Shown: positions 2,230 to 21,896 of the stretch, piece by piece
How the letters are laid out: every line of letters starts with the position of its first letter
Position numbering within the stretch: the stretch's first letter is position 1
IMG/VR virus record: IMGVR_UViG_3300049847_000064
Location: 1 to 25,364 of that record
Source: a virus
Length of the DNA: 25,364 bases
Strand: one strand, 5' to 3'
The notes under the pieces: model-generated
What the model was told of the DNA's origin: nothing
What the model saw: only the letters and a program-made list of their open reading frames with translations
Database searches by the model: none
Translations under genes and position numbers: made by a program

Positions 2230-2658
2230 TTACTTAGATTTAATGCCAGTAAGTTTTGCAACTAGTGAAGCACCAGAACCACCTGCAGCAGCAGGAGCTA
2301 CATCTCTAGAACTAGCTGGTTTAACTGAGTCTTGAGCTGATTCTCCCATATCTCTATTAGGATCAATAGCTTCAAGCTCTTTTGCTTGTAAAGCTGCAAT
2401 TAACTCTTCACGAGTCATTTTACCTACTACATTCTTTTTCAGAGCATTGAGAGGATCTAGATCTTCAGATTCAATTTCAACTTGGGCAGCATCAATAAAT
2501 AGATGTGGATGACCAAGTTTAATTTCATAATCAAGAGTCTGAATTTCTTGTTCATTACTAGTATAATATACACCTTGCTGAAAGATAATGGGTTTACCAT
2601 TAGGCATGATGAAATTACAAGAAGGCATGGTGGATTTATAAACACGGAGGGTTGACAT
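2230..2658 (-). CDS. hypothetical virion-module protein, 142 aa
   Basis: Starts at ATG 2658 with AAGGA 8 nt upstream. The N-terminal half (TMPSCNFIMPNGKPIIFQQG, then a segment ending GHPHLFID) looks like a compact folded domain. The C-terminal half is low complexity, with Ala, Ser and Gly stretches near residues 105-130 and a basic tail ending GIKSK. An acidic segment (EIESEDLDP) precedes a short helix-like MTREELIAALQAKELE. I do not recognise a defined family. Its place two genes after the capsid gene suggests a virion or assembly protein. A structured RNA element occupies the 80-base gap in front of it and may govern its translation. Confidence 0.7.
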   Translation of the reverse strand: MSTLRVYKSTMPSCNFIMPNGKPIIFQQGVYYTSNEQEIQTLDYEIKLGHPHLFIDAAQVEIESEDLDPLNALKKNVVGKMTREELIAALQAKELEAIDPNRDMGESAQDSVKPASSRDVAPAAAGGSGASLVAKLTGIKSK

Positions 2659-2677
2659 ATTAGTCCTTAATTTAGTT

Positions 2678-2733
2678 TCCTAGGGAGGTAGTTTTTACTT
2701 TACTTCAGAACTACCAAACTGAAGTCCCTAGGA
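2678..2733 (-). promoter_or_regulatory. H-type RNA pseudoknot enclosed by an outer stem
   Basis: Read in the minus-strand transcript. Outer stem: 2733-2726 (TCCTAGGG) pairs with 2685-2678 (CCCTAGGA), 8 bp. Stem 1: 2725-2719 (ACTTCAG) with 2708-2702 (CTGAAGT), 7 bp. Stem 2: 2715-2709 (GGTAGTT) with 2693-2687 (AACTACC), 7 bp. Loop 1 is 3 nt (2718-2716), there is no base between stems at 2709/2708, and loop 3 is 8 nt and A-rich (2701-2694). The pairing order is interleaved, which defines a pseudoknot, and loop lengths suit the classical H-type fold. It starts 5 nt after the stop of the 76-aa gene and ends about 20 nt before the start of the 142-aa gene. Function unknown; translational control or mRNA stability is likeliest. 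Confidence 0.6.
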
Positions 2734-2738
2734 GGAAA

Positions 2739-2969
2739 TCAGCCTTGAACAAGTTTAATTGCTTGTCCCATAGTTCCACCAATTTGAGCACCTAAACCAC
2801 CTGTAATTCTGGTAGCTGCTTGAGGAGAAACTTGTGTGCCAGTTCCAATTTGGTTATTACCATCTGGAGTGAAAACCACATTTCCGCCAGCACTACGAAT
2901 AGTAATGGAAGAAATGTAGCCCTCATCAGTAGATTGCATACCAACTGGATTAAGTTGGAGAATTGCCAT
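2739..2969 (-). CDS. small hypothetical virion-module protein, 76 aa
   Basis: Short protein coded directly after the major capsid gene (18 bases between them). Start ATG 2969 is preceded by AAAAAGG about 9 nt upstream. It begins MAILQLNPVGMQSTDEG, has a beta-like middle (ITIRSAGGNVVFTPDGNNQ) and a Gly/Thr/Gln-rich C-terminus. No cysteine, signal peptide or membrane segment. I do not recognise it. Position suggests a capsid-associated protein or an assembly factor. Its stop codon is followed at once by the pseudoknot described at 2678-2733. Confidence 0.65.
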   Translation of the reverse strand: MAILQLNPVGMQSTDEGYISSITIRSAGGNVVFTPDGNNQIGTGTQVSPQAATRITGGLGAQIGGTMGQAIKLVQG

Positions 2970-2987: not shown

Positions 2988-4220
2988 TTAACCAGCAGTA
3001 GCTGCAGTTAAGTTGTAAATAATAGAATTAGCTGGAGGATTTTTAACTACTGTGGTTAGTTCAGTAGTCAGAGTGCCGCCAACTGCATCAATACCATTAT
3101 CAACTGCATCATTGTCACCAGATTCAGAATTATTGAATTCTTTATTCATAGTCTTACGATCACCTAAGTAAGCAAGACGGAAAGAAGAAAGATCAACAGC
3201 AACTGCCATCTTAGACCAGCTAGTATTAGAGTTGAACAGAGGATGTTCAATCATTCTAAATGTACCACGAGCGGTTTTGAAAGTAGAGAATTGTAGACCA
3301 TAACTTGTCTGACCATCTACAATATTGTAAGTACCATTCAAGCGACCAATGTTATTGATAACTCGTTTAGCACTACCACCTACGAAAAGTACACGCTCAT
3401 TAGCAACTTTAGGATCAGTAGCTTGGTTAAATACTGGATCTAGGAAACCTTCTAGTTGAGTATAGTTGGTAGTAGAGCCCGCAGTATTAACGTTTACTGA
3501 AGTAAAGTAGGAAGGATAGTAAGATAGGTTACCTACAATATTAATCAAACCATCCATAGTGCGGAAAGGTTGACCGTTGCGAGTACCCTGAGATTTCTGT
3601 CCAAAGAAAAGAGCTTTCTCAATATCAGCAGCATGGAAACCAGCACAATCTTGACGAGATTCAGCAACGTTAGTTTCACCTGCAATCATCATTGTAGCAC
3701 GGACAGAATCAGAGATTGCCCAAGTGTTACGGAAGATTTGTGTGAAGTTACTAATACGAACAGGATTGATTAGTAAAGATTGAGGACGGACAGAAGCTTC
3801 TTCAAAAGCATTACCAACTTGGTATAAGTTAACAGAAGCAGCAATTGCGGCAGCTGCAACAGTACCAACAGAACGCTGAACAGATACTTGAGTACCAGAA
3901 AGTACAGAGTTAACTAGAATGTTTTCACCAGTAGAATCTACTCTCATCATCATACCTGGTAGTACGTTGGTAGTAGAAGTTACAGTGAAAACACTATCAG
4001 CAGCAGTTTGACCACCGGCGCCAATAGTTAACTGAGGAAACATCATAGTCTTAGTAAAAAAACCGTGCTCAGTTTGAACTGCTGTATCTGATGGAAGCAT
4101 TGAAGTCATACCAAAAAGAGGTGCAGTACCATTTGGCATTAGACGGGTAATCATTCCAGCAAATGATTTTTTTGCTAGATCTTGGGTCATTTGACCAGTA
4201 CTAAAAATACCTTGAGACAT
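2988..4220 (-). CDS. major capsid protein
   Basis: 410 aa. ATG 4220 has a strong AAAAGGAAATAAA leader, consistent with high expression. The protein resembles the SU10/DUF5309-like group of HK97-fold capsid proteins. Visible signs are an N-terminal region without a separate delta domain, a segment near residues 145-215 with ISNFTQIFRNTWAISDS and GFHAADIEKALFFGQKSQG, and a C-terminal region with RMIEHPLFN followed by VDLSSFRLAYLGDRKTM. The order scaffold-like gene, probable decoration gene, then this gene supports the call. It is expected to form the icosahedral shell around the packaged DNA. The family name is from memory of conserved patterns; capsid identity is more secure than the subfamily. 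Confidence 0.85.
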   Translation of the reverse strand: MSQGIFSTGQMTQDLAKKSFAGMITRLMPNGTAPLFGMTSMLPSDTAVQTEHGFFTKTMMFPQLTIGAGGQTAADSVFTVTSTTNVLPGMMMRVDSTGENILVNSVLSGTQVSVQRSVGTVAAAAIAASVNLYQVGNAFEEASVRPQSLLINPVRISNFTQIFRNTWAISDSVRATMMIAGETNVAESRQDCAGFHAADIEKALFFGQKSQGTRNGQPFRTMDGLINIVGNLSYYPSYFTSVNVNTAGSTTNYTQLEGFLDPVFNQATDPKVANERVLFVGGSAKRVINNIGRLNGTYNIVDGQTSYGLQFSTFKTARGTFRMIEHPLFNSNTSWSKMAVAVDLSSFRLAYLGDRKTMNKEFNNSESGDNDAVDNGIDAVGGTLTTELTTVVKNPPANSIIYNLTAATAG

Positions 4221-21821: not shown

Positions 21822-21896
21822 CTCGCCGTAGTATAATGGATAATACAAAGAGCTTCTACCTCTTGAATATGGGTTCGATTCCTGTCGGCGGGACCA
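21822..21896 (+). tRNA. tRNA-Arg, anticodon UCU
   Basis: A full cloverleaf can be folded. Acceptor CTCGCCG with CGGCGGG (one T-G). D stem GTAT/ATAC with loop AATGGATA. Anticodon stem AAGAG/CTCTT with loop CTTCTAC, anticodon TCT at 21855-21857. Variable loop GAAT. T stem ATGGG/CCTGT with loop TTCGATT. Discriminator A and encoded CCA at 21894-21896. Length 75. It reads AGA, a codon the AT-rich phage genes use often. It is the only tRNA seen and ends 6 bases before the DNA polymerase start. Confidence 0.93.

Follow-up and report, generated by a model that had tools for sequence, protein, structure and literature searches.

The question raised by this locus is whether the complementary segments that fill a short gap between two virion genes form a conserved RNA structure and, if so, what that structure does for the genes on either side. 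The window (the whole stretch of DNA analysed, 25,364 nucleotides) is a 25.4-kb record of a podovirus-like phage, IMGVR_UViG_3300049847_000064, whose minus strand encodes terminase, portal, a scaffold-like protein, capsid, and proteins of 76, 142 (hereafter p142) and 196 residues. An H-type pseudoknot enclosed by an outer stem lies at 2733-2678 of that strand, in the 80-nt gap between the 76-aa and 142-aa genes. The features are listed below in minus-strand order, the structural ones as read from the sequence.

Positions 2988..4220, minus strand: major capsid protein gene, SU10_MCP family (PF17236, E 6.8e-39; phrog_1328)
Positions 2739..2969, minus strand: 76-aa gene, directly upstream of the element; a patchy accessory gene, found at 37 loci
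Positions 2726..2733, minus strand: outer stem, 5' strand, TCCTAGGG; covarying or replaced among relatives
Positions 2719..2725, minus strand: pseudoknot stem 1, 5' strand, ACTTCAG; partner 2702-2708
Positions 2716..2718, minus strand: loop 1 (L1), TTT in the DNA, UUU in the RNA
Positions 2709..2715, minus strand: pseudoknot stem 2, 5' strand, GGTAGTT; partner 2687-2693
Positions 2702..2708, minus strand: stem 1, 3' strand, CTGAAGT
Positions 2694..2701, minus strand: loop 3 (L3), A-rich, AAAGTAAA
Positions 2687..2693, minus strand: stem 2, 3' strand, AACTACC; no U-tract after it, the tail being TCCCTAGG
Position 2686, minus strand: single unpaired T between stem 2 and the outer stem
Positions 2678..2685, minus strand: outer stem, 3' strand, CCCTAGGA; holds the Shine-Dalgarno (SD) sequence of the downstream gene in many relatives
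Positions 2664..2668, minus strand: SD sequence AAGGA of the 142-aa gene, outside the outer stem in the window
Positions 2230..2658, minus strand: 142-aa gene (p142), directly downstream of the element; a homologous gene comes next in 156 of 181 relatives

The stems of 8, 7 and 7 bp are all perfect Watson-Crick helices and the loops measure 3, 0 and 8 nt, so that the element has the two interleaved stems, short L1, L2 of about zero and longer L3 of the H-type class. A spacer of 5 nt separates it from the TGA (2741-2739) that ends the 76-aa gene. The initial annotation, made from the sequence of the window, had drawn these stems, loops and coordinates exactly.

Chance expectation and RNA-family searches

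Candidate structures were scored with a script that assigned each H-type pseudoknot the stacking energy of stems 1 and 2 together with the best outer stem; no pseudoknot penalty was included, and shuffled sequences were scored identically. The 80-nt gap of the window scored -40.2, a value reached by none of 10,000 dinucleotide-preserving shuffles, which bears out the earlier judgement that chance formation was unlikely. Within the 25-kb window the element was the sole minus-strand site scoring -28 or better, and the top site on the plus strand scored -29.9. Nested folding of the same stretch was ordinary (MFE -21.5, z = -0.77), and a conventional scan would therefore miss the element.

Searches with Rfam placed only a tRNA above the gathering threshold in the window, and matched the element at neither the gathering nor a relaxed threshold, either in the window or in 10 relatives; a SAM-II-like score in L011 fell within a coding region. 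The only model touching the element was RF01100 (PK-BYV, a plant virus 3'-terminal pseudoknot), whose weak match in the window (17.9 bits, E 0.12) lies far below its gathering score of 50 and reflects a resemblance of shape only. The element is thus outside every Rfam family tested, and literature searches found no description of it.

Survey of relatives and conservation of the stems

A scan with the 142-aa protein (short exact patterns, confirmed by tblastn) gave no relatives, and capsid queries were used instead, which supplied 80 IMG/VR loci per query and one MAG contig. L308 (JAHFMX010000010.1), a 42-kb contig in a bacterial MAG bin with a capsid gene at 76% identity, probably represents the genome of another phage in this family. 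The post-capsid gaps comprised 97 non-identical sequences and six added by hand, giving 103. The best pseudoknot with outer stem beat all 200 shuffles in 37 of these gaps and was matched by at most 2 of 200 in 46 (the 37 included). In the post-capsid gap of L068, L077 and L078 the element is replaced by a different long inverted repeat (TTTGGGCGCCGAATT...AATTCCGGCGCCCAA).

Both strands of 111 distinct loci were then scanned (888 kb per strand, of which the near-capsid zone makes up 79 kb). At a score of -36 or better, 23 sense matches lay no more than 730 nt downstream of the capsid stop, with 2 sense matches elsewhere and 4 antisense (binomial p 2e-22); at -39 or better, 14 lay near the capsid gene, none elsewhere on the sense strand and 1 on the antisense strand (binomial p 2e-15). 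A search of IMG/VR for the pattern TCCTAGGG..CAGTTT returned, among the matches listed, a convincing knot with outer stem only in the same phage family. The carriers form a family of soil and freshwater phages, and the fold is seen again in cultured Pseudomonas phages of the genus Jamesmcgillvirus.

Sub-groups of relatives differ almost wholly in stem sequence, stems 1 and 2 being replaced in matching fashion and the outer stem taking such forms as CCTAGG, CTCCTGAGG/CCTCAGGAG, TTGGT/ACCAA, CCCCG/TGGGG, GGTGGG/CCCACC and CTCCTA/TAGGAG. When 26 distinct elements were anchored at the helix junctions, several Watson-Crick types were found at every pair position, and dealing the 3' strands anew lowered pairing from 100% to 51, 53 and 62%. 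The 29 elements of the set were picked by complementarity, and the statistics are for that reason carried by the shuffles and the genome scan. In close groups with unambiguous ungapped alignment (for example L292/L296/L290/L287, L208/L212, L213/L224/L230 and L038/L040/L051/L278), changes in stems 1 and 2 were either double compensations or gave G-U pairs, and a single end pair was broken. Compensatory change in related phages had been proposed beforehand as the check on the structure, with uncompensated change as its refutation, and the former is the pattern found. Stem 2 of L005, L207, L208 and L212 carries a mid-stem A-A mismatch whose flanking pairs covary (TGATC-A-GGC/GCC-A-GATCA), and L302 has a tandem mismatch in a stem.

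MAFFT alignments of divergent members placed the helices out of register, and a whole-family pair count was therefore not taken from them; apparent broken pairs in L035, L303, L297 and L306, and outer-stem breaks in L224, L230 and L302, were traced to misalignment and set aside. Comparative evidence establishes the predicted fold, a pseudoknot inside an outer stem, as conserved on the sense strand in many unrelated stem versions.

Loop composition and strand

Loop composition formed no part of the search criteria. Across the 29 elements L1 is 72% U, compared with 29% in the regions, and L3 is 65% A, compared with 27%. A U-rich L1 with an A-rich L3 is characteristic of the major-groove and minor-groove triples of triple-helical H-type pseudoknots. 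A signal acting in the DNA, such as a cruciform or a packaging or replication site, would find some encouragement in the near-palindromic outer stem (CCTAGG, CCTGAGG...CCTCAGG), but the changes within close groups run by way of sense-strand G-U pairs, A-C pairs being absent from them, the short L1 and long A-rich L3 suit an RNA pseudoknot on the sense strand only, and strong antisense matches are few (4 at -36 or better). These observations leave a DNA-level function hardly credible.

Association with the downstream gene

Among loci with both the pseudoknot and the outer stem, 13 have a small gene inserted after the capsid gene, and in all of them the element directly precedes p142. Loci with a different small gene after the capsid gene gave no confirmed pseudoknot with outer stem, the single apparent case (L035) being an artefact of ORF calling. 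In L009 and L015 a second small gene stands ahead of the 76-aa gene. The p142 protein is conserved and has no PHROG or Pfam match; its predicted structure has a confident small beta-rich N-terminal domain with the motif FKSxxPxxxYxFxNGKxAxF and a disordered GGSG-containing tail, and Foldseek matched the model (pLDDT 74) convincingly to no other structure (best E 0.07, TM 0.26). At the other end of the window, a tRNA-Arg (TCT) gene at 21822-21896 on the plus strand immediately precedes the gene for the family A DNA polymerase.

The spacing from the upstream stop codon to the outer stem is 2-22 nt across the 29 elements, with a median of 6. Fifteen of the 29 have the downstream SD sequence within the outer stem's 3' strand, and nine, the window among them, have it outside; a strict match recognised no SD in the remaining five, of which L051 and L278 have GGGGA in the stem. 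That makes at least 15 elements out of the 29 whose outer stem buries the SD. In nested partition-function calculations the median probability that the SD is unpaired rose from 0.05 in the intact gap to 0.49 once the 13 nt that follow the stop codon were covered; in the window the corresponding values were 0.63 and 0.53. The initial annotation had noted a CCUCC in the 5' strand that could pair with SD sequences. For the relatives this was right in kind, the 5' strand (CUCCU, CCUAGG) pairing with the SD of the downstream gene in these 15 or more elements, but in the window AAGGA stands outside the stem and is predicted to be mostly open.

Proposed role

Three features favour translational control or coupling: the association with p142, the placing of the SD in the outer stem of many relatives, and the short distance from the preceding stop codon. 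The version in the cultured Jamesmcgillvirus phages, whose outer stem includes the SD, is evidence on the same side. A genomic slot shared with terminators, described below, favours a broader role as an expression boundary behind the capsid genes. The element probably controls the amount of p142 made. At a probability of roughly 0.45, it would be a cis-acting boundary or leader element of the late (virion) mRNA that keeps p142 expression below that of capsid, or couples the two, chiefly by acting on translation. We infer the functional steps as follows, the fold itself resting on comparative evidence. The element would be the dividing line between p142 and the strongly expressed genes before it, those for capsid and for small accessory (possibly decoration) proteins, and would set translation of p142 low or tie it to translation of the preceding gene. 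The knot may serve as a rigid block, with the outer stem masking or bordering the p142 ribosome-binding site; a ribosome terminating 2-22 nt upstream could strip the outer stem of its 5' strand and so free the start site. Where relatives gained or kept a U-tract, the fold would act also as an attenuating terminator. The window version, in which the SD is not buried and no U-tract follows, would most likely be an insulator beside the start site or, alternatively, a 3'-exonuclease barrier protecting the capsid message.

Several observations weigh against this translational account. A significant knot is missing from about half of the 103 gaps, which contain just hairpins or terminators, and the stems are imperfect in some relatives (L005, L207, L208, L212 and L302). 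Nine of the 29 elements leave the SD outside the stem, and in the window it is predicted to be open and to gain nothing from ribosome coverage. Structure placed immediately past a stop codon can, moreover, impede coupling (PMC12548453).

A more specific proposal is tentative, and we would sooner doubt it than adopt it: the elements may constitute an undescribed family of phage mRNA regulators in which a triple-helical knot and an SD-burying outer stem, opened by ribosomes, couple p142 to capsid and interconvert with terminators. If this were true, a widespread family of podoviruses would adjust the amount of a low-copy virion protein to the translation of capsid, and the element and intrinsic terminators would interconvert in one slot during evolution.

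Alternative explanations

Phage T7 steps transcription down after gene 10. The element could likewise function at the 3' end of a transcript: as a pseudoknotted attenuator or terminator, or as a barrier to 3'-exonucleases, it would terminate or shield the capsid message and reduce transcription ahead of the tail and connector genes. This reading ranks next after the translational boundary or leader, though we regard it as rather unlikely. The nearest cultured capsids (37-38% identity) are those of the Jamesmcgillvirus (Fredfastierviridae) Pseudomonas phages, Aeromonas phage P5 and Polaromonas phage Tiera. The Jamesmcgillvirus gap (L309-L320) reads AGGATG-GTCAA-CCTGGCT-CATCCT-AGTGGTG-GGCCAGG-ATTTTTT, its outer stem TCTAGT/ACTAGG extends to the SD of the next gene, and the fold as a whole is equalled by 0-1 of 200 shuffles. 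The records of PaMx41, PaMx33, PaMx46 and PaMx35 have a terminator annotated in this same post-capsid slot, whose hairpin is pseudoknot stem 2 and whose tail is the ATTTTTT; the annotation leaves the pseudoknot and outer stem unrecognised. P5, Tiera, EBPR podovirus 3 and Roseobacter phage CRP-810 have a plain strong hairpin in the slot followed by a T-run, and in L206, L051 and L278 the knot is followed by TTTTT. A U-tract hairpin was found in 33 of 75 gaps without the pseudoknot and outer stem as against 6 of 28 with them (Fisher p 0.04), so that knot and terminator look like alternatives in one slot. Jamesmcgillvirus and some relatives have the G+C-rich hairpin with immediate U-tract of an intrinsic terminator; against the transcript-end reading, 22 of the 28 elements, that of the window among them, lack a U-tract hairpin, the terminator scan found none at the window element, and upon gene insertion the element stays beside p142 and not beside the capsid gene. 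A plain terminator was considered for the window element and found unsupported, there being no U-tract. The earlier leaning towards control of the 142-aa gene or a role at the end of the mRNA holds up.

A protein-binding operator, to which p142 or another late phage protein would bind and so repress p142 translation in the manner of T4 gp32, is distinctly less probable. The tie to p142 would suit it, as would a topology and position like those of the gene 32 operator, with an A+U-rich open ribosome-binding region downstream of the knot (PMC3014915), a picture that the window spacer AACTAAATTAAGGACTAAT fits; yet few single-stranded bases are conserved beyond the UUU and A-rich loops, the stems vary freely, and the p142 model, for which no convincing structural match was found, shows no sign of RNA binding. 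A metabolite riboswitch is a very improbable reading. The preQ1-I, SAM-II and SAM-V riboswitches are H-type knots that have a U-rich L1, an A-rich L3 and SD occlusion in common with the element (PMC11625349, PMC6061858), but the element has no Rfam riboswitch match, its core pairs change freely, it lies in a virion operon with no adjoining metabolic gene, and the absence among the relatives of the invariant bases of a conserved ligand pocket disfavours a ligand riboswitch in particular. Stimulation of stop-codon readthrough or frameshifting, yielding a longer capsid or 76-aa protein, can be given next to no weight. An H-type knot a few nucleotides past a stop codon is the usual geometry for such stimulators, but readthrough in the window would add 12 codons before TAA, as the initial annotation had counted approximately in doubting this role, and across the relatives the upstream gene is not constant, the 2-22 nt spacing departs from a fixed spacer of 5-9 nt, and the extensions (0-24 codons, or open through the gap) give no consistent or conserved C-terminal addition.

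Comparison with known systems

The element is invisible to RNA-family scans and to nested folding, yet recurs with compensated stems in many uncultivated phages, and pseudoknots controlling translation in DNA phages are rare. A cultured, tractable relative has the same fold, which makes the step-down of post-capsid expression directly testable. In E. coli, the rpmI-rplT leader contains a pseudoknot. That operon (L35-L20) has a similar intergenic gap (+52 nt there, 80 nt here), in which the structure masks the downstream start and upstream translation opens the structure (PMC12548453); it differs in being a ribosomal protein operon with L20 as repressor and a long-range knot, whereas the element described here is a compact local knot of unrelated sequence. 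The autoregulatory pseudoknot of T4 and T2 gene 32, in its T4 form considered by a 2010 review possibly the only viral case of autoregulation, is likewise an H-type knot in a phage mRNA upstream of the ribosome-binding site of its gene, but lies about 67 nt upstream of gene 32 and has no outer stem described (PMC3014915). The present element, by contrast, is intergenic between virion genes, has an outer stem that often includes the SD, and has no known repressor. By analogy, it would work like the pseudoknotted translational leaders (PMC3014915) and like the intergenic structures that upstream ribosomes open (PMC12548453).
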